A stretch of 64,000 bases of DNA from Deltaproteobacteria bacterium (GTDB taxonomy: Bacteria > Myxococcota_A > UBA9160 > UBA4427), in contig JAJDAN010000054.1 of NCBI GenBank assembly GCA_029261855.1, positions 1 to 64,000 of the forward strand. Direction: 5' to 3'. Positions within the stretch are counted from its first letter, which is position 1. Every line of letters begins with the position of its first letter. Made by a program: the position numbers and the translations under genes. The notes under the pieces were generated by a model. The model worked only from the letters and a program-made list of their open reading frames with translations. It did not search any database and had not been told where the DNA came from. Shown here piece after piece: positions 1 to 15,399 of this stretch.

Positions 1-41
1 GCTGGCGCTGATAAGGTGTCGTCTTGGCGTTAGGATGCAGT

Positions 42-117
42 GTCACCCGGGATCCCCCTCTGGGCTTTGGAGTTGCGTAGACAACAACCCCTGTAGCCTC
101 AGAGGGCCTGGGTGACC
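42..117. repeat. Imperfect inverted repeat downstream of the LLM oxidoreductase gene
   Basis: Arms at about 42-64 and 96-117 are near-complementary: GTCACCC...CCCTCTG on the left matches the reverse complement of CAGAGGG...GGGTGAC on the right. About 30 nt lie between the arms. The structure is just past the stop codon of the minus-strand gene ending at 138, so a terminator-type stem-loop is the simplest reading. No T-run follows, and nothing else is recognisable in bases 1-137. Confidence 0.4.
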
Positions 118-137
118 AATGTTCCTGGAAGTGACAG

Positions 138-1100
138 CTAGCCCAGCGCCTTCAGCGCGATCTCGCCCAACAGCGCCACGCGTTCGACGTTGTGGCCGTT
201 CACCGGGAGGTCCACGGTGACTCCGTCGAGCCCCAGTGCGACCGCCTCGGCGATCCGCTCTCCCACGCTGTCCGCATCGCCGTAGATCAGCGTCTTGCGG
301 ACCATGTCCAGGATCGCATCGTTCCAGCCCTTGACGGTCGCGATGGCCGCGAGGTCCGCTTCCAGCTCGTCCATCGTCGGTGCGACCGCCACCATCAGCA
401 GCTTGGTCACGACCAGCTCCGACCGGTCGCGGCCGAGTCGGTCGCAGTGCTCTGCCAATACCTCGAGCTTGCGCGGGATGTCCTTCACTTCGCCCGTGAG
501 GTTCGACTCGTCGGCGTACTGCGCGACCATGCGCAGAGTCTTCTTTTCCCCCTGGCCCCCGATCATCACCGGGATCCGCGACACGGATGCGGGCTCGTTC
601 GCTGCTTCGACCACGCTGTAGTGGTCCCCGCGCAGCGTCGGCCGCTCGCCCCGTAGCATCGGCACGATGATCTGCAGCGCCTCTTCGAGCTTCTCGAAGC
701 GGTCGCCGAAGGTCCCGTACTCGAAGCCGAGGTCGAGATGTTCCTTCTCGAACCAGCCGGCGCCGATGCCCAGGGAAGCACGGCCGTGGGAGACGTGGTC
801 GAGAGTCGTGATCGTCTTCGCGAGCAACGCCGGATTCCGATAGGTATTGCCCGTCACGAGGGCCGACAACCGCACTGCTTCCGTGTGCTGCGCCAGCGCT
901 GAGAGCATCGAGTAGCACTCGAACATGGGCTCATCGTGGCGCCCGATCCCCGGCAGCTGGTAGAAGTGGTCCATCACCATGACGCGGTCGTATCCGGCCG
1001 ACTCGGCGGCCTTCGCCTGCGCGACGACCTTGTCGAAGATCTCATCGGGCCGCGTGTCGGGATAGGTGAAGTTGGGGATCTGATAGCCGAGTCGTGTCAT
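138..1100 (-). CDS. LLM-class F420-dependent oxidoreductase
   Basis: A 320-residue protein with the layout of the bacterial luciferase-like monooxygenase (LLM) TIM-barrel family. The N-terminus reads GYQIPNFTYPD. RVMVMDHFYQLP follows near residue 40, then the family block LSALVTGNTYRNPALLAKTI and GRASLGIGAGWFEKEH, where flavin/F420 and substrate bind in relatives. PVMIGGQGEKKTLRMVAQYAD lies near residue 178. Members usually use coenzyme F420 or FMN to reduce or oxidise small organic substrates; the substrate cannot be read here. The ATG at 1100 is preceded by AGGACA. The gene stands alone, with a PEP-CTERM gene divergent from it. Family is secure, substrate unknown. Confidence 0.88.
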   Translation of the reverse strand: MTRLGYQIPNFTYPDTRPDEIFDKVVAQAKAAESAGYDRVMVMDHFYQLPGIGRHDEPMFECYSMLSALAQHTEAVRLSALVTGNTYRNPALLAKTITTLDHVSHGRASLGIGAGWFEKEHLDLGFEYGTFGDRFEKLEEALQIIVPMLRGERPTLRGDHYSVVEAANEPASVSRIPVMIGGQGEKKTLRMVAQYADESNLTGEVKDIPRKLEVLAEHCDRLGRDRSELVVTKLLMVAVAPTMDELEADLAAIATVKGWNDAILDMVRKTLIYGDADSVGERIAEAVALGLDGVTVDLPVNGHNVERVALLGEIALKALG

Positions 1101-3275: not shown

Positions 3276-3479
<204 letters not shown>

Positions 3480-3488
3480 ACTCTCACC

Positions 3489-5513
3489 ATGCCTCCGAAC
3501 GATCCCCGCAACCTTCTACCATTCCTTGCCCCGCCGAGAGCGTTACGAGCATTCCCCGCGGCGCTGCTGCTCGCGCTAGCGCTCGCGCTTTCCACGGCCT
3601 GCGGGCAGCCGCAGCCCGCCGCCGTCGGCGCGGGGACCGTCGCGGCCTGGTCGTCCTGGGGCGGCGCACCCGGCGGCGGTCACTATTCGTCCGCGAGCCA
3701 GATCACGCCGGAGAACGTCTCGGCCCTCGAGCTGGCGTGGGTGCATCGCTCGGGCGATCTGCGCGAACCCCGGGGATTCGACGCCGAGGGTGGGCCGATG
3801 AGTGCGAACGGCTTCCAAGTGACGCCGATCGTCGTAGACGACACCCTCTACTACTGCTCCCCGTTCAACAAGGTCTTTGCGCTCGACGCCGAGACTGGCG
3901 AGGAAAAGTGGCGCTTCGACCCGAAGGTCGCGCGGGATTTCATCCTGCCCAACTGTCGGGGCGTCAGCAGCTGGCGATCCGGGCGCGACGGCGTCTGCGA
4001 GCACCGCATCTTCCTGGGAACCCTCGACGCGCGCTTGATCGCGCTGGATGCGAAGACTGGCGAGCGCTGCAGCGACTTCGGGGACGATGGCGAGGTCGAC
4101 GTGACCCACCGCATCTCGAAGCACGACCCGGTCGAATACAGCATCACCTCGCCTCCTGCGATCCTCGGAGATGTCGCCATCACCGGCTCGCTGGTCCTCG
4201 ACAACCAGCGCACGGACGCGCCGAGTGGTGTCGTGCGCGCCTACGACGTGCGCACGGGCGAGCAGCGCTGGGCCTGGAACCCCATCCCGCCCGGCATGGA
4301 CCCGTGGAACGAAGACAGCAGCTACCGCAGCGGCACGACGAACGTCTGGTCGGTGATCGCCGTCGACGAAGAACGCAACCTCGTCTTCGTGCCGACAGGC
4401 AACACCAACCCGGACTATTTCGGGGGCCATCGCGATCCCCGAGAGCATGCGAAGCGCGGCCTGTCCGAAGGCCTCGACCACTACTCGAGCTCGGTCGTCG
4501 CCCTGGACGGCAACACGGGCGAGGTGGCCTGGCACTACCAGATGGTCCACCACGACCTGTGGGACTATGACACCCCCGCCCAGCCGACCTTGATGGACCT
4601 GATGGTCGACGGCAAATCGGTCCCGGTCGTCGTGCAGGTGACCAAGATGGGCATGACCTTCGTGCTGCACCGCGAGACGGGAGAGCCCGTCTTTCCCGTG
4701 ATCGAAAAGCCGGTGCCCCAGGGCGCGGTGCCGGGCGAGTATCTTTCGCCGACACAGCCCTTCCCGACTCACGTCCCGCACCTGCTAGCGGCGGCCGTGA
4801 GCGCCGACGACGCCTGGGGGGTCACGCCCTGGGACGAAGCTGAGTGCCGCGAGCGGATCGCCGGCCTGCGCAACGAAGGGATGTACACTCCGCCTTCGAC
4901 CCAGGGGTCGATCTTGTTCCCGAGCAACGGCGGCGGCAACAACTGGGGCTCCCCTGCCATCCACCCCGCCGAACAGGCGATGGTCGTGGTGACCTGGCGC
5001 TTCGCCGCCATGTCGAAGCTCGTCCCCCGTGCCGAGTGCGAGAACGTCTATCAGAAGCAGAAGGGCACGCCGTACTGCGTCGAGACCGATGTCGTCTCTT
5101 CTCCGCTCGGGGTTCCCTGCCTGGCACCGCCCTGGGCCACGATCGACGCCGTCGATCTGGCGGGGGGCAAGCTGCTCTGGAGCGTGCCGCTCGGAACCTC
5201 GCGCGACCTCGCGCCGTTCCCGTTCTGGTGGCTGCGCGGTGTTCCGGGGGTGGGTGGGCCCATCGTCAGCGAGACCGGGGTCATCTTCATCGGCGCGGCA
5301 CTGGAGCACGCCTTCCGGGCCCACGACCTGACGACGGGCGAGGTCTTGTGGGAGACGCGCCTGCCGACCTCAGCCAACTCGGTCCCGATGACCTATCAGG
5401 TTCGCCCGGACGGCAGGCAGTTCGTCGTCATCGCCGCGGGCGGACACTGGGGCGCCCCCACGCCTCCGGGTGACCACGTGATGGCGTTCGCCCTGCCCGA
5501 GCCGGAGCGATGA
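3489..5513 (+). CDS. PQQ-dependent dehydrogenase, glucose-dehydrogenase-like quinoprotein lipoprotein
   Basis: 674 residues. The signal peptide ends in a lipobox (LALALSTAC, Cys about 38), so the protein is a periplasm-facing lipoprotein. The rest is an eight-bladed quinoprotein propeller. HHDLWDYDTPAQPTL and the block KMGMTFVLHRETGEPVF...EKPVPQG...SPTQPF match the periplasmic domain of membrane-bound PQQ glucose dehydrogenases. PQQ enzymes oxidise alcohols or sugars and pass electrons to quinone or cytochrome c. The usual N-terminal transmembrane bundle of glucose dehydrogenase is absent, so electrons probably go to the cytochromes encoded downstream. It is the first gene of a four-gene operon; its stop overlaps the next ATG (ATGA). 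The substrate is not determinable. Confidence 0.87.
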   Translation: MPPNDPRNLLPFLAPPRALRAFPAALLLALALALSTACGQPQPAAVGAGTVAAWSSWGGAPGGGHYSSASQITPENVSALELAWVHRSGDLREPRGFDAEGGPMSANGFQVTPIVVDDTLYYCSPFNKVFALDAETGEEKWRFDPKVARDFILPNCRGVSSWRSGRDGVCEHRIFLGTLDARLIALDAKTGERCSDFGDDGEVDVTHRISKHDPVEYSITSPPAILGDVAITGSLVLDNQRTDAPSGVVRAYDVRTGEQRWAWNPIPPGMDPWNEDSSYRSGTTNVWSVIAVDEERNLVFVPTGNTNPDYFGGHRDPREHAKRGLSEGLDHYSSSVVALDGNTGEVAWHYQMVHHDLWDYDTPAQPTLMDLMVDGKSVPVVVQVTKMGMTFVLHRETGEPVFPVIEKPVPQGAVPGEYLSPTQPFPTHVPHLLAAAVSADDAWGVTPWDEAECRERIAGLRNEGMYTPPSTQGSILFPSNGGGNNWGSPAIHPAEQAMVVVTWRFAAMSKLVPRAECENVYQKQKGTPYCVETDVVSSPLGVPCLAPPWATIDAVDLAGGKLLWSVPLGTSRDLAPFPFWWLRGVPGVGGPIVSETGVIFIGAALEHAFRAHDLTTGEVLWETRLPTSANSVPMTYQVRPDGRQFVVIAAGGHWGAPTPPGDHVMAFALPEPER

Positions 5514-6112
5514 TTCGCAGCGTCGCGGGCATGGGCTCTGTCTTCGGCTCTGTCTTCGGCTCTGTGTTCGGATCTGTCTTGGGCTTGGGAACCGTCCTGG
5601 CGATGGGCGTGGGGTGTGACGACGGACCGCCCGCGGGACCGATCGTCAACCCGCCGGCCCCGTGGACACACGAGCGCAGCGCGGCGGCCGACACGTTGAT
5701 CGGCCAGCTCCGGCAGCTTCCGCCCGCGGGCGGCGTCACGGTCCGACTGGCGTTCGGTCCGGAGAGCGATCTCGATCTCTATGTGACGGGCCCCTTCGAG
5801 GAGACCGTCTACTACGCGAACACGCCCAGCCGCATCGGCGGCGAGCTGGTGGCGGACCAGCGCTGCACAGCCTCCGCTCTGCCCCAGGCCACCCGCATCG
5901 AGGAAGTCCGCTTCCCCACAGTTCCGGGACGCTATCGAGTCGGTGTGGACTATCCTCGCGCCTGCGGCGAGGGGCGCGATCCCGCAGCATTCGCCGTGAG
6001 GGTCGATACGCCGGCGGACCAGTTGGAGCACCGGGGCATCGCCGTCCGCCAGGTGTTCGAGCCCATCGTGCTCGAGTTCGACGTCGCCAGTCCGGAGGAG
6101 GACAACCGATGA
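5510..6112 (+). CDS. Small lipoprotein of the PQQ-dehydrogenase operon
   Basis: 200 residues. The signal peptide contains four in-frame GSVF/GSVL repeats, encoded by a 12-nt tandem repeat, and ends at a lipobox-like MGVGC (Cys about 36). The mature part resembles a C-terminal pre-peptidase or PPC-like beta-sandwich: VTVRLAFGPESDLDLYVTGP, then Cys-containing RCTA and ACGEG, which could form a disulfide. No catalytic motif is seen. It overlaps both neighbours by 4 nt, so it is translationally coupled to the dehydrogenase and the haem protein. It may be an accessory or anchoring subunit; the function is not recognised. Confidence 0.75.
   Translation: MIRSVAGMGSVFGSVFGSVFGSVLGLGTVLAMGVGCDDGPPAGPIVNPPAPWTHERSAAADTLIGQLRQLPPAGGVTVRLAFGPESDLDLYVTGPFEETVYYANTPSRIGGELVADQRCTASALPQATRIEEVRFPTVPGRYRVGVDYPRACGEGRDPAAFAVRVDTPADQLEHRGIAVRQVFEPIVLEFDVASPEEDNR
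5534..5581 (+). repeat. Four 12-nt tandem repeats inside a signal peptide
   Basis: Units at 5534, 5546, 5558 and 5570 follow GGCTCTGTCTTC: the first two are identical, the third has one change and the fourth two. Each unit encodes Gly-Ser-Val-Phe/Leu in the hydrophobic core of the lipoprotein signal peptide. Gain or loss of a unit would stay in frame and change the core length by four residues. Confidence 0.9.
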
Positions 6113-7923
6113 CGCGCATCTCGAAGGCCTGCTTCACTGTGTTCGTCTACGGCGCGGTTTCCGTCGGGTTCCCGCTGGCGACCCAGGCCGGCGAGCTGAC
6201 CGGCACTCTGACAGGGACCCTGACAGGGACCGGGGATCAGCCGATCGTCGGTGCGCTGGTGACGGCCGAACGCGGCGACCCCGCTCGCGGCGTCACGGTC
6301 TATTCCGACGCGGCCGGCCACTTTGCGGTGCCGGGCCTCGCCGAGGGTGACTGGCAGCTTCGCGTGCGCCGCATCGGCTGGCGCGACGCGCAGGCGACGG
6401 TCCCTGTCCCGGGTCCGCCGGTCGCGGTCGCACTGGAAGCGGAAACCGATCCCGCCGCCCTCGCCGCCCAGCTTCCCGCGAACCGCTGGTTCGCGCTGTT
6501 TCTCGAGCAGATCGAAGACCCGACCCAGCGCGAGCAGTTCGTGCGCCAGTGCACCTACTGCCACCAGCAGGGCAACGCCGCGACGCGGGTACCGCGAGAA
6601 GACTGGCAGTGGGAGAAGGTGCTGCACCTGATGGCGCGCATGGGCGGTGGGCTCACCCCCGAGGTGCGAGCGCAGGTCCCGGGCTGGTTCGACGCCGCCT
6701 ACGACCCGGCGCACGCGGTGCCGCGGCTGACCGCCGGGATGGGCACGGAGGCCTTCGCGCCGCCGCCGCCCGAAGCCGTGCGGCGCGCCGTCATCGACGA
6801 GTGGGTGCTCGGCGGCCGCGCCTCCATGCAACACGACCTGATGGTGCACCCGAGCGGCGACGTCTACTCGGTGGACATGATGCAGGACGAGCTCTTCCGG
6901 CTCGACCCCGAGACCGGCGAGACGAAGCGCTTCCCGATCGAGAGCGACCTGCCCCTGGGCGGTGTGTTCGCGACGTCGGGCTCGCCCCTACAGCCGAACG
7001 CGAACGCGCGTGTCGGTCCCCATTCCCTGCAGGCCGCGCCGGACGGCTCGATCTGGGTGACCCTGGCGCTCGGCAACCGACTCGGCCGTTTCGACCCGAC
7101 GACGGAACAGTGGACCCTCTACCCCATGAGCGAGGGTTTCTATCCGCATACCCTGCGGATCGACGACCGCGGTCGCGTGTGGTTCACGATCGCTGGCTCG
7201 AACCACGTGGCGCGCTTCGATCCGACGACCGAGACCTTCGAGACCATCACCCTGCCCGCCGTCAGCTGGAGCCAGGCCGCGCTCATCCGGATGCTGCCCG
7301 TCCTGTTCTGGGTCTTCCAGACCTTCGAGATCGACCCCGGCGAAGCGGGCGAAGGATCGGGTGGGATGCCCGTCCCCTACGGCATCGACATCGCGCTCGA
7401 CGGCGGCATCTGGTTCAGCCAGCTCAACGCGCACCGCATCGGGCGGATCGACCCGGACACTCTCGAGGTCGAAATCGTGGAGACGCCCTTCACGGCGCCC
7501 CGCCGGCTGCGCTTCGATTCCCAGGGTCGGCTCTGGATCCCCGGCTTCTCTTCAGGGCTCGTGGCGCGCTTCGACCCGAAGACCCGGGCCTTCGAAACCT
7601 GGCCCATCCCCATCGAGCCGCTCGGGTCCGAGACCCCCTACGCGCTTCACGTCGATCACAGCAACGACACGGTGTGGATCTGCGGCACCAACAGCGATTC
7701 GCTCATCCGTTTCGACCCCGCGAACGAGGAGTTCCTCGTCTATCCGCTGCCGACCCGGGTGACCTACACCCGTGAGATCGACTTCGACAGCGAAGGACGC
7801 GTCTGGACGTCGAACTCGAACGCCCCGACGTGGCAGATCGAACGCGGCCAGCCCCGGGTGATCCGGCTGGATCCGCGCGCCGGATTTGCTGGCGACGACG
7901 ATCGGGTCGCAGCGGCGCCGTGA
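6109..7923 (+). CDS. Haem-binding, virginiamycin-B-lyase-like propeller protein
   Basis: 604 residues from the ATG at 6109, with GGAGGAG at 6093-6099. In order: signal peptide ending near TQAGE; LTGT repeats; a carboxypeptidase-regulatory/CnaA-like beta domain (IVGALVTAERGD...GHFAVPGLAEGDWQLRVRRIG); one c-type haem site CTYCH near residue 147; then a propeller with Vgb-like repeats (FRLDPETGE, LGRFDPTTEQW, VARFDPTTETF, IGRIDPDT). Vgb lyase acts on streptogramins, but the fold is used widely and no lyase activity is claimed. With PQQ dehydrogenase and cytochrome c as neighbours, an electron-transfer or substrate-binding role in the periplasm fits better. It overlaps both flanking genes. Confidence 0.82.
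   Translation: MTRISKACFTVFVYGAVSVGFPLATQAGELTGTLTGTLTGTGDQPIVGALVTAERGDPARGVTVYSDAAGHFAVPGLAEGDWQLRVRRIGWRDAQATVPVPGPPVAVALEAETDPAALAAQLPANRWFALFLEQIEDPTQREQFVRQCTYCHQQGNAATRVPREDWQWEKVLHLMARMGGGLTPEVRAQVPGWFDAAYDPAHAVPRLTAGMGTEAFAPPPPEAVRRAVIDEWVLGGRASMQHDLMVHPSGDVYSVDMMQDELFRLDPETGETKRFPIESDLPLGGVFATSGSPLQPNANARVGPHSLQAAPDGSIWVTLALGNRLGRFDPTTEQWTLYPMSEGFYPHTLRIDDRGRVWFTIAGSNHVARFDPTTETFETITLPAVSWSQAALIRMLPVLFWVFQTFEIDPGEAGEGSGGMPVPYGIDIALDGGIWFSQLNAHRIGRIDPDTLEVEIVETPFTAPRRLRFDSQGRLWIPGFSSGLVARFDPKTRAFETWPIPIEPLGSETPYALHVDHSNDTVWICGTNSDSLIRFDPANEEFLVYPLPTRVTYTREIDFDSEGRVWTSNSNAPTWQIERGQPRVIRLDPRAGFAGDDDRVAAAP
6196..6231 (+). repeat. Three 12-nt tandem repeats at the mature N-terminus of the haem/Vgb-like protein
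   Basis: Units at 6196, 6208 and 6220 follow CTGACAGGGACC, the last two being identical. They encode Leu-Thr-Gly-Thr repeated in frame just after the predicted signal cleavage site. This is the second 12-nt in-frame repeat in adjacent genes of the same operon. Confidence 0.85.
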
Positions 7924-8315
7924 CGCGCCAGCCGGCCCTCCTGTTCGTCTTCGCCCTGGCGGTCGCGGGCTTCGCGCAGGTGGGTGCTTCGCCCCTTGCT
8001 GCGGGCGAGACGCCTGATTCCGGCCAGGAAAGCTACGAGCAGCTCTGTGCGTCCTGCCACGGGACGGAAGGCAAGGGAGACGGCCCCGCCGGAATCGTCG
8101 CCCTGCCCATGCCGCGGGATTTCAGCGTGGGCCAGTTCAAGTTCGACGCGGACAGCGATGGTCACACGGGCAGCGACGACGACCTCTTCCTCGTGATCCG
8201 CGACGGCGCCAGCCGCTACGGAGGCAGCCCTCTGATGGCGGCCTGGGGCTACCTGGGAGACGAGCGCGTCCGCGAACTGGTGGTCTACGTTCGAAGCCTC
8301 GGCCAGAACGACTAG
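7920..8315 (+). CDS. Periplasmic monohaem cytochrome c
   Basis: 131 residues from the GTG at 7920, which overlaps the previous stop as GTGA. A signal peptide is followed by a class I cytochrome c domain: haem site CASCHGTEGKGDG at residues 43-47 and a likely distal Met in GGSPLMAAWG. The C-terminal helix is RVRELVVYVRSLGQ, the usual mark of cytochrome cbb3/CccA-type c domains. As last gene of the operon it is the likely electron acceptor for the PQQ dehydrogenase and/or the haem-propeller protein, passing electrons to a terminal oxidase encoded elsewhere. Its TAG stop forms the left end of a dispersed repeat. Confidence 0.9.
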   Translation: MTRQPALLFVFALAVAGFAQVGASPLAAGETPDSGQESYEQLCASCHGTEGKGDGPAGIVALPMPRDFSVGQFKFDADSDGHTGSDDDLFLVIRDGASRYGGSPLMAAWGYLGDERVRELVVYVRSLGQND

Positions 8316-8434: not shown

Positions 8435-9832
8435 TCAGGCGCGGTCCGGGATCCAGCTCGAATGGAACCCGGAGACGACGCGCCGCGGAATGTGGATCTC
8501 CGCGAGCGGCTCCGCACCGACGTTCGCCGCGTCCAGGATGACCATGTAGCTCGTGTCCGTGTCCGGCTTCCAGACGAAGGTCATCAGATAGCCGTCGTCT
8601 TCGGCGCTGCCGCCCTCTCGCGGCACGAAGACCGATTCGCCCGGCTCGTGACCGGCGGGGAACTTGTGGACCTGCTTGGTCGCTCCGTTGCTCAGGTCGT
8701 ACTTGTTGACCTGGCCGCCCATGTTGCCACTGTCCGGATCGCCGCCCAGGGAGTAGCCGAAGCGGTTCCGATGTCCCTGAAGGCTCGCCGGGATACGCGG
8801 AAACTCGGACGCGTCGTCATCGAGGTAGCGCTCCTTGACCGAGCCGGAACTCATGCTGAGCCGCCACTCGTGGAGACGCGGCATGGCCTCGGGCGCCGTC
8901 GGCGCCGCCATGTCCATGGCGGACGAATCGCGCCAGATTTCGGGGACCCGCATGCCGTAGACCACCACCTCATCCCCGTCGTCGAAAGCATTGAGGGTGT
9001 GGAAGCAGTAGCAGGGGGCGACGTCGAACCACTTGACCTGGTCGTTGTTGCCCTCGCGAGGCATGACCCCGAAGCGCGCCGGGTAGTCGTCGCTCCAGCG
9101 AATGGGCATGCCGCCCTTCATCGCGAGCTCCATGTCGAAGATGGCAGGCAGGTCCATGAAGATGGTGTGGTTCCGGCTGGCCGCGAAGTCGTGCATCATC
9201 GTCGGGCCCGTGACCGCGATCTCGGTCGATTGAACCATGTTGCCCTGGGCGTCGACCCGAAAGTAGGTGAGGTACGGCGGGATCGGCGCGTAGCCGAAGG
9301 CCAGCATTTCCCCGGTGTCCGGACAGAACTTGGGATGTGCGGTGAAGGGGCCGGTGAGCTTCCCCCCGAAGGTGTGAGGCCCGACGGTGTCGAGTTCCTT
9401 GCTGAGCTCGTACGGGAAGGAGCCCTCCTCGAGCGCCAGGATCTTCCCGCCGTGGCCGATGATGTGGGTGTTCGCGGCCGACACGGAGTAGTCGAAGGTG
9501 AGCTTCTCCTTGTCGATCGCCAGCGTCAGTCGATCGACGCCCGGATGCTCGAACATGGGGGTGCGCACGTAGCGGTTCCGGTACCAGCTCGCCTTGCCGT
9601 CCTCGAGTTCGACCCCGTGAAGCATGCCGTCACCGATGAACCAGTGCTCGGTGTAGCCGGTCTGGGGATTGGCGGTGTTGCGGAAGTAGCGGCCGTTGAG
9701 CTCGCGCGGGATCTCGCCCTTCACCTCGAGGTCGGTCAGCGTGGCCTCGTCGAAGACGGGCTTGCGGCTGCCGATGAGGTGCCAGGGTGCGTCGGGACCC
9801 TGGCCCCGGGGATCGAGTGCGCCGCTGCTCAT
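8435..9832 (-). CDS. Carotenoid oxygenase family protein
   Basis: 465 residues from the ATG at 9832 behind GAGGAG. It has the seven-bladed propeller layout of carotenoid cleavage oxygenases. The four Fe(II)-binding His are placed as in the family: AHPKFCP (H166), MMHDFAASRNH (H214), CFHTLNAF (H278) and SGFHSSW (H457). The N-terminal RYFRNTANPQTG and HWFIGDGMLHG are also family blocks. Members cleave carotenoids, stilbenes or lignin-derived double bonds with O2; the substrate is not predictable here. The enzyme should be cytosolic or membrane-associated, as no signal peptide is seen. It converges with the cytochrome operon, and the DUF2332 gene is divergent from it. Confidence 0.9.
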   Translation of the reverse strand: MSSGALDPRGQGPDAPWHLIGSRKPVFDEATLTDLEVKGEIPRELNGRYFRNTANPQTGYTEHWFIGDGMLHGVELEDGKASWYRNRYVRTPMFEHPGVDRLTLAIDKEKLTFDYSVSAANTHIIGHGGKILALEEGSFPYELSKELDTVGPHTFGGKLTGPFTAHPKFCPDTGEMLAFGYAPIPPYLTYFRVDAQGNMVQSTEIAVTGPTMMHDFAASRNHTIFMDLPAIFDMELAMKGGMPIRWSDDYPARFGVMPREGNNDQVKWFDVAPCYCFHTLNAFDDGDEVVVYGMRVPEIWRDSSAMDMAAPTAPEAMPRLHEWRLSMSSGSVKERYLDDDASEFPRIPASLQGHRNRFGYSLGGDPDSGNMGGQVNKYDLSNGATKQVHKFPAGHEPGESVFVPREGGSAEDDGYLMTFVWKPDTDTSYMVILDAANVGAEPLAEIHIPRRVVSGFHSSWIPDRA

Positions 9833-9944
9833 GAGGACTCCTCGTCTCGCGTGCCCGAGATGCGGCGGGCAACGCTTCCAGTGGGCCCGGACTCTAACAT
9901 TCTCCTTCTCGCCAAGACCAGCGAGGTCGGTCCATACTCCGGGA

Positions 9945-11009
9945 GTGGACCTCGATCGCACCCTGACCTCCTTCCGTTTGCAGGAGGGATTCTGCGCCTA
10001 CCTGGGCTCGCCCCTGTACAGCGCGCTGCTGGGACACGCGCGGGCCGACATCGAGGCCCGAGGCGCCGTGTGGGACCTGATACGCGACTTCGAAGGCGAT
10101 CCCTTGCGCGGCTTCCTTGCCCTTCGGGTTCTCGGTGCCGTGCACGAACAGGTGCTGGCCGGACGCGCGCCAGCGCTTGCGCGCTTCTATCCAACCGCCG
10201 GAGGGTGCGCGGACGCGGACGCGGACGCCGCATGGCCGCACTTCCGGGACGTGATCGAGAAGGAGCGCACGCGCATGCGCCCCCGACTCGAACGCTTCCC
10301 CCAGACCAACGAGGTGCGGCGCTGCGCGGGGCTGCTGGGAGGCTTCCTTCTCGTCGCGCAACAGACGGGGCTGCCGCTTCGCCTGCTCGAGATCGGTTGC
10401 AGCGCGGGGCTGAATCTACAGTGGAGCCAGTTCCGATATGACCTCGGCGCCTGGACGTGGGGAGACGCCGCCTCCCCTGTCGCGATTTCGACGGAATGGA
10501 ACGGCGATGACCCCGGTCTTGGCGATGTCCGCGTCGAAGTCCGCGAGCGCAGTGGTTGCGACATCGCCCCTCGGGCCATCGACGACGACGAGGGTGTCCG
10601 GGATCTCGAGTGCTTCGTCTGGGCCGACCAGCCGGAACGCTTGACGCAGCTCCGCGCCGCCGTCGAGGTGGCGCGCCGAGATCCGCCGGACGTGCGGGAA
10701 GCCCGCGCCGGCGACTGGCTTCCCGACCGGCTGTCCGAGGCGCGAGCGGACGTCTGCACGGTCGTCTACCACTCGTCGGTCTGGGCGTACGTGCCGAGTG
10801 ACGAGCAGCGCACGGTGCGGGAGGCGATCGAGTCCCACGGCGCGGAGGCCACATCCGCACGGCCACTGGCGTGGCTGCGCGCGGAAGCTTCCCCGGACGG
10901 AAGCCAGATAGAGCTCCGCCTTCGTGTCTGGCCGGACGGTCGGGAGCTTCTGCTCGGCGAAGGACACGCGCACGGCCGGAGTGTCAGCTGGCACCCCCGC
11001 GTCGCCTAG
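9945..11009 (+). CDS. DUF2332 family protein
   Basis: 354 residues from the GTG at 9945. The sequence matches the DUF2332 pattern: N-terminal helical part (FCAYLGSPLYSALLGHAR), then NEVRRCAGLLGGFLLVA, LRLLEIGCSAGLNLQWSQFRY, reminiscent of a SAM-methyltransferase glycine loop, and C-terminal TVVYHSSVWAYVP with EGHAHGRSVSW. The function is not established; a Rossmann-like nucleotide- or SAM-binding fold is inferred from the EIGCSAGLN loop. No strong ribosome site precedes the GTG, and an earlier start is possible but would overlap the divergent carotenoid oxygenase gene. Its TAG stop is embedded in repeat copy B. Confidence 0.78.
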   Translation: MDLDRTLTSFRLQEGFCAYLGSPLYSALLGHARADIEARGAVWDLIRDFEGDPLRGFLALRVLGAVHEQVLAGRAPALARFYPTAGGCADADADAAWPHFRDVIEKERTRMRPRLERFPQTNEVRRCAGLLGGFLLVAQQTGLPLRLLEIGCSAGLNLQWSQFRYDLGAWTWGDAASPVAISTEWNGDDPGLGDVRVEVRERSGCDIAPRAIDDDEGVRDLECFVWADQPERLTQLRAAVEVARRDPPDVREARAGDWLPDRLSEARADVCTVVYHSSVWAYVPSDEQRTVREAIESHGAEATSARPLAWLRAEASPDGSQIELRLRVWPDGRELLLGEGHAHGRSVSWHPRVA

Positions 11010-11074: not shown

Positions 11075-11859
11075 CCGAACGCACCGGGAAGGCGCGGGTG
11101 CGGCCGAGCCCATGCGATGCAGCCGGTGGCTGCGAGCAGTAGCGCGAGGAGGATGGCGCCGGTCATCGGCAACGCGGGAATGGGAACGGCAGCGGCCAGC
11201 TCGCTCAAGCGCAGGTCGCCACCCTTCGCGTAGAAGTCGTACGGACCGAAGCACTGGCCTCCGTCGCAGGCGGTCTGGGTCTCGGACCCGACGAGATTGA
11301 CCCGGCCCGTCGCCGGGTCGTAGGCCGAGCCCGGAACCGGAATGCAGATCTGCCCGCAAAACTGCGGTGCGACCGCGCACAAGGCATCGACCTGGGCCTG
11401 GGAGGTGCAGATGAAGGGGTCGACGTTGGGCCCGACGTAGGCAATGACGGCGGCCGTATCGAGCGCTTTCTGGGTGAACGACAACCCGAGGTTCCCGCTC
11501 TCGACCGCGCCCGACGCGGGCAGGCTCGTCGCGCCCAGCGTCGCGACGTCGATGTGGATCACGATCGCATCGAACGATCCCGGCACGGGCTCCCAGCTGC
11601 CGCCGGACCACATCTCCACGTGGGTCGCCGCGGAGATCGTGAGCGTCCCCGTCGTGCCGTCAGACGACCAGCTCGCCGTTCGCTGGGGGCCGAAGATCTC
11701 GCCGATCGCGTTCGGCGCCGGTGAGCTCTCGACCTCGAACCCGATGCTGCGCGGTGTCGTGTCCTGGACGTCGAGGGGCGTTTGCGCGCCGGCGAGGCCC
11801 GGTGCCACCCAGGCGACGAAGACTGCAGACAAGGCGGCGATCCGGGCGATTCGAAGCAT
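11071..11859 (-). CDS. Secreted protein with C-terminal sorting/anchor signal
   Basis: 262 residues. It has a clear signal peptide (MLRIARIAALSAVFVAWVAPGLAGA) and a beta-rich body with a cysteine-containing insert (ICTSQAQVDALCAVAPQFCGQICIP, then CDGGQCFG). The tripartite C-terminus is a short motif PALPMTG, a hydrophobic segment (AILLALLLAATGCIAW) and a basic tail ARPHPR. The layout is that of an exosortase/rhombosortase-type tag, although LPMTG also fits the sortase LPxTG consensus. No enzyme motif is seen. It is convergent with the DUF2332 gene through repeat copy B. Surface location is likely, function unknown. Confidence 0.72.
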   Translation of the reverse strand: MLRIARIAALSAVFVAWVAPGLAGAQTPLDVQDTTPRSIGFEVESSPAPNAIGEIFGPQRTASWSSDGTTGTLTISAATHVEMWSGGSWEPVPGSFDAIVIHIDVATLGATSLPASGAVESGNLGLSFTQKALDTAAVIAYVGPNVDPFICTSQAQVDALCAVAPQFCGQICIPVPGSAYDPATGRVNLVGSETQTACDGGQCFGPYDFYAKGGDLRLSELAAAVPIPALPMTGAILLALLLAATGCIAWARPHPRLPGAFG

Positions 11860-12096
11860 CGGGCACCTCCACTACTGCATGCGACATTCGACCACAGGCG
11901 CCGCTGGGGGTCAAAAACCGCTGGCTTCGATGTCTTCCGTCCAAACCTGTCGTAGCTCGCGCGGGATCGAAGCGTCGGGCATGCCCCTCCTGGCACACAA
12001 GGCCGTTTCGCGCCCGACCGCGACCGACTCTCTGATAGGATGCCTCGACCAAGGGTGCGCCTGTGGGCGCGGGGGGCGCGAGTTCGGAGTGACGCG

Positions 12097-15000
12097 ATGA
12101 GTGCCTTCTTCGAAGCCGTCGAGAGAGCCCGGCGGCTCCTCGAGGACCGTGGACGCGTCTCTCTGCGCGGCCTGCGGAGGGATCTGGAGATCGACGAGGA
12201 GACCCTCGACGATCTCGCCGAGGAACTCGTCGAAGGGCTCCAGGTCGCTCGGCGCGAGGGCGCCGCCCTCGTCTGGCGAAGCGACGCCCAGGCGCGCGTG
12301 GTGAGCGGGGTCCGGGTCGCGGCGCACGAGAGCGAGCGACGTCAGCTGGTCGTCGTGTTCTGCGACATGGTGGGCTCGACCGAGCTCGCACAGCGCATCG
12401 ATCCCGAGGAGCTTCGGCAGGTCCTGCACGACTATCGGGAGGTGTGCGTCGAGGCCGTCGAGCACTTCGGTGGGCACGTTGCGCAGTACCTGGGCGACGG
12501 CGTGCTCGTCTACTTCGGCTATCCCCGCGCCCTGGAAGACCAGGCCGATCGCGCGATCCGCTGCGCACTCGAGATCCAGCGCCAGCTCGGAGAGCGCCAG
12601 CTGGATGCGCGCATCGGCATCCACAGTGGACTCGTGGTCGTGGACCCCGAAGCCGAGGGCGAGGACGCACTGGCGCTCGGCCCCACGGTGAACGTCGCCG
12701 CGCGAATCCAGGGGATCGCGCATTCGGGCAGCGTGGTCGTCAGCGACGAGACGCTCTCACTTTGCCGCAGCTCCTTCCAGGCGCGCAGCCTGGGCGAGAC
12801 ACCCGTCCGCGGCCTCGACCATCCGATGGTCCTCCACGAGGTCGAACGCGTCGTCGGCGCCCAGGCCCTGAGCGACGTGGACGACGGCCGGCCCATGCTG
12901 GGGCGCGACCGCGAGCTGGCCTTCCTGCTCGATCGCTGGAGCGACCTCGTCGCCCATCGGGGCCACGTCGTGCTGGTGCGCGGGGAGCCCGGGATCGGCA
13001 AGTCCCGACTCATCCGATCGTTCCGCGATGCGCTGGGCGACCGCGACTGTCTCTGGCTCACGACCCAGTGCTCGCCCTTCGCGCAAGGCAGCGCCTTCCA
13101 ACCCATCGTGGATCTGCTGGTGTCGCAGTTCGGCATCGCCGATCTCGAACCCGCGGCCGCCACGGAGCGAATCGTCGAGCGGGTATCGGCCATCCCCGGG
13201 CTCGATGACGTCATCCCCTACCTGCTGGCCCTGCTCGGCCTGCCCTCGACGCCCGATCACCCGCCGCCGCAGATCACCCCCGACGAGCAGCGCGAGCGAA
13301 CACTCTCCTCGCTGGTGCGCCTCAACTCCGCCGTCGCTCAGCAGCGACCTCTGGTGATCGTCGCCGAGGACCTCCACTGGGCCGACCCGTCCACCCTCGA
13401 GTACGTGGGTCGTCTGGCGGAAGCCGTCGAAGCCAGTCCCGTGTTGATCGCCCTGACCTGTCGTCCCGAATTCCGACCTGCCTGGAGCAACGACCGCATC
13501 TCGGAGATCTCGCTTGCGCGACTGTCGGCCGAGGCCACGCGCGAGCTCATCCACAATTCGATGGGGCGCACGCTCCCCGCGACGGCCGTGGCCGAGCTCG
13601 AGCGCCGCTCGGACGGCGTTCCTCTCTACATCGAAGAGCTCGTTGCCGGGCTGATGAGCACCCTCGATCTGGGCGACCCGGGACGGGTCGACGAATCAGA
13701 CGTGCAGATCCGGGCCCTCTCGATCCCGGCTTCGCTGCAGGACGCCTTGATGGCACGCCTGGACCGACTGGGAGCGTCGAAGCGAGTGGCCCAGCAGGCG
13801 GCCATCATTGGCCGGGAGTTCTCCCATGCGCTCATCGCGGCGGTAGTCGAGCTGGACCCGCAGACCCTCGAGCGCGCGCTGGACCAGCTGGTCGACGCGC
13901 AGATCCTGCACCGCAGCGGCAGGCCTCCGCATGCCAGCTACAGCTTCCGCCACGCGCTGATCCAGGCCACGGCCTACGAGTCCCAGCTGCGATCCAGTCG
14001 CAAGACCTCACACGCCCGGGTAGCGGCCGTCCTCGAGGAGCACTTCCCGCGCCGGGTGGAGGTCGAGCCCGAGCTGATGGCGCGTCACTGCGCGGCGGGC
14101 GATCTCCACGACGCCGCGGTCGGCCACTCCGTGCGGGCTGCGGAGCTCGCGAAGTCGCGCTTCGCGAACGAAGAGGCGTCCGAGCACTTCCGTCTGGCCC
14201 TCGAGGCCCTGGGGCAGCTGCCCGAGAGCGACGAGCGCAACCAGCAGGAAATCGGCATTCGCATTGCCCACGGCCAGGCCCTGGTTGCCCTGCTCGGATC
14301 CGAGGTTCCGCAGGTCCGGAGCAACTACTCGCGGATCGAAGCGCTCTGCGACGCGCTCGAGGAGGGGCTCGCGCAAGTGCCGGCGCTGATCGCGCTTGCG
14401 GAGTTCGAGATGGTCGCGGGCGGCGATCCCCGGGCCGGCAGCGCCTACGCGGAGCGGGTCGCGGCTCTCGGCCGGCGCTTCGATGTCCCGCAGCTGCTGG
14501 TGGCCGGCAACGTGATCATCGCGAGTGCCGCGCTGGCGGGACTCGACGTCCGCGAGGCAGAGCCCCTGCTTCGCGAGCTGCTCGAGATCGCGAAGACGGT
14601 CCCGTTCCCGCCCCCGGTGACACCCTACGACACGGACGTCGTCGCCCTGGCGTACGGCGTTCATGTGCTCGCCATCGCAGGCATGGGCAAACCCGATCAG
14701 GCGATGGCGGCAACCGCCCCCATGGAAGCCTATCTGCAGACCCTGGATCATCCCCACAGTCACGGCCTCGCCCTCGCGAGCGTCGTCGGCGCCGGCTACG
14801 TGCTGCTCGACGCCGACCTGTGCGAGCAGACCGGGAACCGCATCCTCGCTCTTCTCGAAGGCAACGGCTTCCACACCACCGAGTCGGTCGCGCTGGTACT
14901 GCGGGGCTGGGGTCGCGCCCAGCTGGGCGAGATCGACCGCGCCGTCGCAGATGTCGAACGCGGACTCGCCGTGCAGGCTTCGCTGGGATACATGGCGGCC

Positions 15001-15399
15001 GGCGGCTACTACCAGGTGGCGGCGGCGGACGTCCACCGACTGGCCAAGAACCACGACCGCGCCAGGGAGCTGCTCGAAGTGGCTGCCGCCGGTGCCGGGC
15101 GCTACGAGGTCGTCGCGATGACGCGCTCCTACGTCCTCGGGATGCTCGAACTCGAGGACGGCCGCCTCGACACCGCTGAGCAGCATCTCGAGCAAGCCTA
15201 CGCGCTCGCGGCAACGAGCGAAAATCGCTGGCAGCAGCTCCACTACGCCACGCAGCTGGCCCGTGTCGCCGCGCGGACGGGAGACGTGGGCGAAGCGAGA
15301 GAGCGGCTGGAAGAGAGCTACGGCGAGATCCACGAGGGGCTGGAGCGCCGCGTGCCCCGTGAAGCCAAAACCATGCTCGATGCACTCGCACGATCCTGA
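12097..15399 (+). CDS. Class III adenylate/guanylate cyclase fused to AAA ATPase and TPR-like region
   Basis: 1100 residues from the ATG at 12097, with GGAG 7 nt upstream. In order: a short helical N-terminal segment; a class III cyclase domain (about 80-260) with metal-binding Asp in VVFCDMVGST (D90) and in YLGDGVLVYFGYP (D134); an AAA/STAND-type ATPase with Walker A GEPGIGKSR near 296 and Walker B LVIVAEDLHWADPS near 420; and a long C-terminal TPR-like helical region. Such fusions couple ligand or nucleotide sensing to cAMP/cGMP synthesis. The next gene starts 18 nt downstream, so transcription may be joint. A cNMP-binding protein and CRP-like sites occur elsewhere in the window. Confidence 0.9.
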   Translation: MSAFFEAVERARRLLEDRGRVSLRGLRRDLEIDEETLDDLAEELVEGLQVARREGAALVWRSDAQARVVSGVRVAAHESERRQLVVVFCDMVGSTELAQRIDPEELRQVLHDYREVCVEAVEHFGGHVAQYLGDGVLVYFGYPRALEDQADRAIRCALEIQRQLGERQLDARIGIHSGLVVVDPEAEGEDALALGPTVNVAARIQGIAHSGSVVVSDETLSLCRSSFQARSLGETPVRGLDHPMVLHEVERVVGAQALSDVDDGRPMLGRDRELAFLLDRWSDLVAHRGHVVLVRGEPGIGKSRLIRSFRDALGDRDCLWLTTQCSPFAQGSAFQPIVDLLVSQFGIADLEPAAATERIVERVSAIPGLDDVIPYLLALLGLPSTPDHPPPQITPDEQRERTLSSLVRLNSAVAQQRPLVIVAEDLHWADPSTLEYVGRLAEAVEASPVLIALTCRPEFRPAWSNDRISEISLARLSAEATRELIHNSMGRTLPATAVAELERRSDGVPLYIEELVAGLMSTLDLGDPGRVDESDVQIRALSIPASLQDALMARLDRLGASKRVAQQAAIIGREFSHALIAAVVELDPQTLERALDQLVDAQILHRSGRPPHASYSFRHALIQATAYESQLRSSRKTSHARVAAVLEEHFPRRVEVEPELMARHCAAGDLHDAAVGHSVRAAELAKSRFANEEASEHFRLALEALGQLPESDERNQQEIGIRIAHGQALVALLGSEVPQVRSNYSRIEALCDALEEGLAQVPALIALAEFEMVAGGDPRAGSAYAERVAALGRRFDVPQLLVAGNVIIASAALAGLDVREAEPLLRELLEIAKTVPFPPPVTPYDTDVVALAYGVHVLAIAGMGKPDQAMAATAPMEAYLQTLDHPHSHGLALASVVGAGYVLLDADLCEQTGNRILALLEGNGFHTTESVALVLRGWGRAQLGEIDRAVADVERGLAVQASLGYMAAGGYYQVAAADVHRLAKNHDRARELLEVAAAGAGRYEVVAMTRSYVLGMLELEDGRLDTAEQHLEQAYALAATSENRWQQLHYATQLARVAARTGDVGEARERLEESYGEIHEGLERRVPREAKTMLDALARS

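Follow-up and report, generated by a model that had tools for sequence, protein, structure and literature searches.

The gene cluster

The window analysed here is a stretch of 64,000 nucleotides from a deltaproteobacterial genome assembly (GCA_029261855.1, contig JAJDAN010000054.1), and four open reading frames lie head to tail on its forward strand, where all features described below are also found. Gene A (3489..5513, 674 aa) encodes a PQQ dehydrogenase with a propeller of the glucose/quinate/shikimate type and is a predicted lipoprotein, and gene B (5510..6112, 200 aa) encodes a small lipoprotein with a weakly PPC-like beta-sandwich. Gene C (6109..7923, 604 aa) combines a regulatory beta domain, a monohaem c site and a seven-bladed Vgb-like propeller, and is followed by gene D (7920..8315, 131 aa), which encodes a small monohaem cytochrome c with the motif CASCH. 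Consecutive genes overlap by 4 nucleotides at all three junctions, with ATGA shared by A and B (5510-5513) and by B and C (6109-6112), and GTGA shared by C and D (7920-7923); the 4-nt overlaps had been described in an earlier note on this DNA. By reading of the sequence, the signal regions of A and B end in the lipobox-like motifs ...STAC and GVGC, the latter in keeping with the small lipoprotein that the note had seen in B, and those of C and D have AxA-like ends. The product of D, which the note had called a cytochrome c, matches Pfam Cytochrome_CBB3 (E 2.4e-9) and is likely an electron carrier.

Because these genes recur together in other genomes, the A-B-C-D grouping exceeds chance. A His-rich, SEC-C-like open reading frame just upstream was considered as a further member and set aside, its exact degenerate motif pattern occurring in 0/192 loci; the pattern is a strict one, and that part of the window is not covered by the 192 loci.

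The propeller protein

The domain composition that the earlier note gave for C is borne out by Pfam and by the haem motif. A CarboxypepD_reg domain at residues 33-101 (6205..6411) scores 44.4 bits against a cut-off of 32.3, the haem c site CTYCH occupies residues 148-152 (6550..6564), and the propeller extends over residues 224-590 (6778..7878; 221-590 in the model), with Vgb lyase as its closest solved fold. Pfam Vgb_lyase (PF24684) is matched at 78 bits against a cut-off of 50, as is the SGL propeller, whereas the NCBIfam Vgb models give 51 and 45 bits, far under their cut-off of 600. The haem region reaches 16.3 bits with Cytochrome_CBB3, under the cut-off of 27. An AlphaFold2 model built on a 29-row alignment has a mean pLDDT of 87.7, the haem region being less certain, with blocks at pLDDT 77-87. 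Compared with solved structures, the modelled propeller is closest to the Vgb lyases 2qc5 (Z 34.6, rmsd 1.6, 295 residues aligned) and 2z2n (Z 34.5), and the next fold, YncE, is clearly behind at Z 28.6. Blades 3 and 4 are separated by an inserted helix at residues 387-405, which is hydrophobic by reading of the sequence and may touch lipid or a greasy substrate.

Conservation was assessed on an alignment of 75 rows from many phyla, each of at least 300 residues, shorter rows being left out. The CxxCH motif is complete in 73/73 rows, and the methionine column at M175, after the haem site, is invariant, which makes M175 the probable axial ligand of the haem. Within the propeller, one residue per blade is fixed at the same motif position in 98-100% of the 62-75 rows. 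These are H242 in blade 1 (with D243, 6832..6837; 74/75 rows each), H305 in blade 2 (7021..7023; 74/75), H347 in blade 3 (7147..7149; 75/75), Y424 in blade 4 (7378..7380; 64/65), R465 in blade 5 (with R466, 7501..7506; 64/65 each), Y511 in blade 6 (7639..7641; 64/64) and R555 in blade 7 (7771..7773; 61/62). Modelled on the Vgb fold, the seven positions would line the propeller channel.

The likeness to Vgb (PDB 2qc5 / 2z2n) thus extends to the seven-bladed fold and the Pfam Vgb_lyase match, but C differs in its additional regulatory and haem domains and in its channel residues. The structure 2z2p is, by its PDB title, the inactive H270A form of Vgb; the catalytic role of His270 is taken from that title, and this histidine presumably stands at the same motif position as the conserved set of C. 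An in-order structural alignment of C 226..590 with Vgb 2..294 would place His270 on R555, a register that is backed by the Streptomyces Vgb row of the alignment and that would give C an arginine at the His270 position. The Streptomyces virginiamycin B lyase is without the seven-residue set of C, which is complete in a haem-less ‘lyase’ from Methylocystis, present with one histidine replaced in another from Paraburkholderia, and mostly present in a ‘cytochrome C’ from Catenovulum. Since the set is missing from the Streptomyces enzyme and shared by haem-less relatives, it marks, at the level of sequence, a family distinct from Vgb whose members occur with and without haem. A sequence search of the PDB with C returned no solved relative with the same set of domains, but Vgb, other propellers and single-domain matches.

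Among enzymes of other families, thiocyanate dehydrogenase is described as a seven-bladed propeller that holds three copper ions in its central tunnel and reduces the monohaem cytochrome c552 (PMC9456337). It shows that a plan leading from a propeller metal to a haem exists, and its likeness to C would be one of working principle alone, the haem of C being fused to the propeller and the metal of C a candidate. Beside it, cNosZ may be named as a metal-centred propeller oxidoreductase that works in a like manner, and C has three conserved histidines. A weak profile hit (E 0.001) connects C with peptidyl-alpha-hydroxyglycine alpha-amidating lyase, PAL (3fvz). In PAL, zinc is held by three histidines, with tyrosine and arginine also in the channel of a six-bladed, haem-less propeller; the kinds of residues would resemble those of C, which is seven-bladed and carries a haem.

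The dehydrogenase

Protein A matches the full profile of PF01011 (Pfam PQQ) over residues 54-646 with 747.6 bits. Its match to TIGR03074 begins at model position 153 and scores 694.6 bits, under the cut-off of 832.65; from this starting point we conclude that A is without the N-terminal membrane bundle, which is also absent in an alignment to E. coli Gcd. Together with the lipobox-like signal end, these matches agree with the bundle-less PQQ dehydrogenase lipoprotein of the earlier note. A aligns with TIGR03074 and Gcd along the whole propeller, but differs from them as a bundle-less lipoprotein with a score under the family cut-off and with three of the checked residues changed. Equivalents of Gcd D354, N355, W404, D466, K493 and H775 are kept, whereas H262 is replaced by Leu, T424 by Asn and D730 by Glu. 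These positions comprise what we take to be the catalytic Asp and Lys, the contacts to calcium and PQQ, and, in H262, a residue linked to glucose. As most of the checked PQQ, calcium and catalytic residues are retained and H262 is lost, A probably works as a dehydrogenase, though not on glucose. In the window's own genome PqqE scores above its cut-off, so the host is expected to make PQQ.

A PQQ dehydrogenase without a membrane bundle is not new in itself: SldA-type subunits consist of a propeller without a bundle of its own and are paired with a separate membrane protein, SldB. A is likewise bundle-less, but has B, C and D beside it in place of SldB.

In a dehydrogenase tree of 33 rows, whose non-adjacent members were chosen among best hits and not randomly, the 19 rows adjacent to C need 4 label changes, against a mean of 11.0 after shuffling, and none of 500 shuffles was as low as 4. 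The C-adjacent dehydrogenases fall into clade I, which unites A with gammaproteobacterial proteins (support 100/100), and clade II (95/98), with two further ones (L053 and L130) as deep rows outside both. The sole non-adjacent members of the two clades come from two genomes (G032 and G044) that also carry C.

The companion lipoprotein and the gene neighbourhood

A Pfam search with B returned no family, and a weak PPC-like signal appears in 8/17 of its homologues (best E 1.4e-5). The model of B (mean pLDDT 81.3) has a helix followed by what reads as a beta-sandwich, and a fold search of this model against the PDB gave no match at E <= 0.001. Assignment of B to a known domain was accordingly dropped, the weak PPC signal standing alone. 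The B profile was built from C-adjacent B genes, and in a genome-wide search with P0002 alone 22/31 places adjoin C (manual count).

Homologues of C are present in 32/60 related genomes at E <= 0.001, of which 30 are strong (E <= 1e-100, manual count), and B is present in 28/60. A strong C is accompanied by B in 27/60 genomes and stands without it in 3 (G010, G040 and G048), while B alone is found in 1 (G051) and neither in 29, a co-occurrence with a Fisher p of about 2e-12 when kinship is ignored. It is B, and not the dehydrogenase, that is the constant companion of C. In named collections, and among the best 80 of 92 loci, C extends across Myxococcota, ‘Deltaproteobacteria’ MAGs and Gammaproteobacteria, and, at 33-44% identity, to Nitrospirae, Thalassotalea, Bermanella, Thalassolituus, Burkholderiaceae, Planctomycetes, Verrucomicrobia, Hydrogenedentes and others.

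Neighbourhoods were counted on 94 distinct loci out of 120, after 26 duplicates had been dropped and with the window itself excluded. Home-made gene calls missed small genes in these loci, and A to D were therefore mapped with HMMs. Close loci are those whose protein is at least 50% identical to C (n=59, 36 with full flanks of at least 2.5 kb on both sides), and the remaining 35 are distant (23 with full flanks). Within 3 kb of C, B is found at 25 of the 36 close full-flank loci, against 14 for A and 10 for D, and 4 loci have none of them; the 23 distant ones have A in 2, and B and D in 0. A rough estimate, even with as many as 19 dehydrogenases allowed per 5-Mb genome, puts the chance of finding A this often within 3 kb at P about 2e-11. 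The order A-B-C-D is shared by the window and one other locus (L061), while in Gammaproteobacteria all four genes are found rearranged, as C-B-D-A (L084) or with A divergent from C-B-D (L093), and C-A with B divergent is seen in five loci (L034, L047, L094, L098 and L115). The neighbourhood conservation that the note had proposed as a check is thus found across Myxococcota and Gammaproteobacteria, with the order shuffled. Distant C genes keep other redox company: a cluster of AraC regulator, SBF transporter, SDR/epimerase, C and MFS transporter is complete in five gammaproteobacterial loci (L116-L118, L120 and L122, of which L116 is from Thalassotalea sp. G2M2-11) and partial in three more (L119, L121 and L123), and an aldo-keto reductase lies beside or near C in five closer loci.

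The dehydrogenase is missing altogether from two draft genomes, 93 and 94% complete, in which no PF01011 match was found genome-wide and which have C-B-D (G034) or C and B (G036). As far as these drafts show, C and B can therefore persist without a PF01011 dehydrogenase. Both genomes carry pqqE, pqqB and a fused pqqC-pqqD (pqqB, C and D being recognised by eye), as well as GSDH-type proteins, and in the seven remaining genomes without PF01011 both C and PqqE are absent. Across the order, PqqE is found in 27/42 genomes with C and 16/37 without it (p 0.07), and is thus absent from 15/42 of the former. Outside the order it falls under the cut-off in 32/33 C-bearing genomes, some of which also have A and for which completeness is not given.

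A proposed periplasmic oxidation module and its alternatives

The module is real and conserved, and its core protein is uncharacterised. On balance we favour, by a modest degree, a reading in which the operon encodes a periplasmic oxidation module, with C as an enzyme that has a haem outlet, B as its partner, and A and D as redox companions. The channel of C, with its His, His, His, Tyr, Arg, Tyr and Arg, would be the active centre and probably bind either a metal ion or a ligand of the carboxylate type, and the fused c-type haem would take the electrons out. B would act as obligate partner and membrane tether of C, and the soluble cytochrome D would pass the electrons on. A may oxidise the same substrate at an alcohol or aldehyde group, in a step that precedes or follows that of C, and, being without the quinone-reducing membrane bundle, would deliver electrons to one of the two haems, that of C or that of D, perhaps within a physical complex. 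The strongest caution is that haem-less relatives share the residue set, which speaks against C as such an enzyme, so the propeller chemistry of C may not be redox. It also tells against the module that most C loci are without an adjacent dehydrogenase, and that distant C genes with full flanks lack B and D and that distant C genes have other neighbours.

The earlier note had seen in C a haem-linked partner of the dehydrogenase, and the tight coupling, the conserved neighbourhood, the haem present in 73/73 rows and the dehydrogenase clades tied to C all speak for such a partnership. In its strict form, with C a non-catalytic electron acceptor and scaffold for the bundle-less A, the idea seems rather improbable to us. 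The 4-nucleotide overlaps, the two C-tied clades, the invariant haem site and the same-strand A genes less than 3 kb downstream of C in 10/36 close full-flank loci would all suit it, but as the main role of C it is at odds with the two genomes that have C and B without PF01011, and with the 22/36 close and 21/23 distant full-flank loci that have no dehydrogenase within 3 kb. Distant C proteins without a dehydrogenase keep the haem and the channel residues, and seven blades with an invariant residue apiece are more than a passive scaffold needs.

We doubt to a similar degree that C uses its Vgb scaffold for non-redox chemistry, as a lyase or hydrolase opening a lactone, ester or ether to free an alcohol that A would oxidise, with the haem as sensor or stabiliser. 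An invariant haem would be odd in a non-redox enzyme, and the catalytic His270 of Vgb appears to fall on R555, although the Vgb fold with its Pfam match above cut-off, the haem-less ‘lyases’ that keep the residue set but for one histidine in Paraburkholderia, and the frequent SDR, aldo-keto reductase and PQQ dehydrogenase neighbours, all of them alcohol or carbonyl enzymes, fit such a role. That C itself binds PQQ, as a quinohaemoprotein on a new type of propeller, would explain why the two genomes without PF01011 have both C and pqq genes and the seven others neither C nor PqqE, and would suit an arginine-rich channel. GSDH-type proteins could be the PQQ users in those two genomes, and the link between C and PqqE is not significant over the order and is not borne out beyond it, where PqqE is above cut-off in 1/33 genomes; this proposal was set aside as a minor rival and strikes us as very improbable.

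Returning to the oxidation module, its parts are known ones, and it would not be a wholly new kind of system unless the channel of C holds a new redox centre. A bolder and more tentative possibility, which we hold to be less probable than the module itself, is that C is the first of a class of periplasmic propeller oxidoreductases that has yet to be described. In such an enzyme, built on the Vgb scaffold, a catalytic metal or quinone in the channel of three His, two Tyr and two Arg would feed a haem c on the same chain; B would stay with it as its lipoprotein, and on two or more occasions different clades of PQQ dehydrogenases would have joined it to form a two-enzyme oxidation module. The literature searched gave no description of the operon or of C-type proteins, and no paper in it brought PQQ and cytochrome c together with virginiamycin B lyase.

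Proteins of the C type are widespread, with members in Myxococcota, Gammaproteobacteria, Burkholderiales, Nitrospirota, Planctomycetota and further groups. Should C prove to be an enzyme, the antibiotic-lyase label now given to a large family would be wrong, and the bundle-less PQQ dehydrogenases would gain both a defined route for their electrons and a pathway context.

Genes flanking the operon

Immediately upstream of gene A, the PQQ dehydrogenase lipoprotein gene, and separated from its start by 9 bases, lies a 67-aa ORF (3276-3479, + strand) read from the sequence as having a His/Asp-rich start and a 17-residue motif that we take to be SEC-C-like. This ORF may share a transcript with gene A; a strict pattern for its motif matched none of the 192 other loci. 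On the other side, the A-D operon converges with a gene of the RPE65/carotenoid-oxygenase family (8435-9961, - strand; 397.8 bits). In L047, a relative (11504-13744) also lies close to the C locus. Further along the window, a 1119-aa ORF (12040-15399, + strand) looks, from its sequence, like a cyclase/ATPase-type regulator.

Relatives of C in other genomes

In the related genomes G034 (L176) and G036 (L177), no PF01011 dehydrogenase was found despite an apparently complete pqqB-pqqCD-pqqE cluster in each; GSDH-type proteins, which may be the users of PQQ there, were found in both. Homologues of C, the haem-carrying propeller protein, also occur in a conserved gammaproteobacterial cluster (L116-L118, L120 and L122, at about 6.7-13 kb), where AraC, SBF transporter and SDR/epimerase genes lie on one side of the homologue and an MFS gene on the other. 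The Thalassotalea version carries an extra SDR, together with a large ORF that looks like a receptor.

The channel residue set of C is shared with haem-less proteins labelled 'lyase' on Methylocystis and Paraburkholderia plasmids (L167, 2974-3903; L168, 2719-3876), with one His substituted in the Paraburkholderia protein. For haem-less proteins of this kind, virginiamycin B lyase is probably the wrong label.
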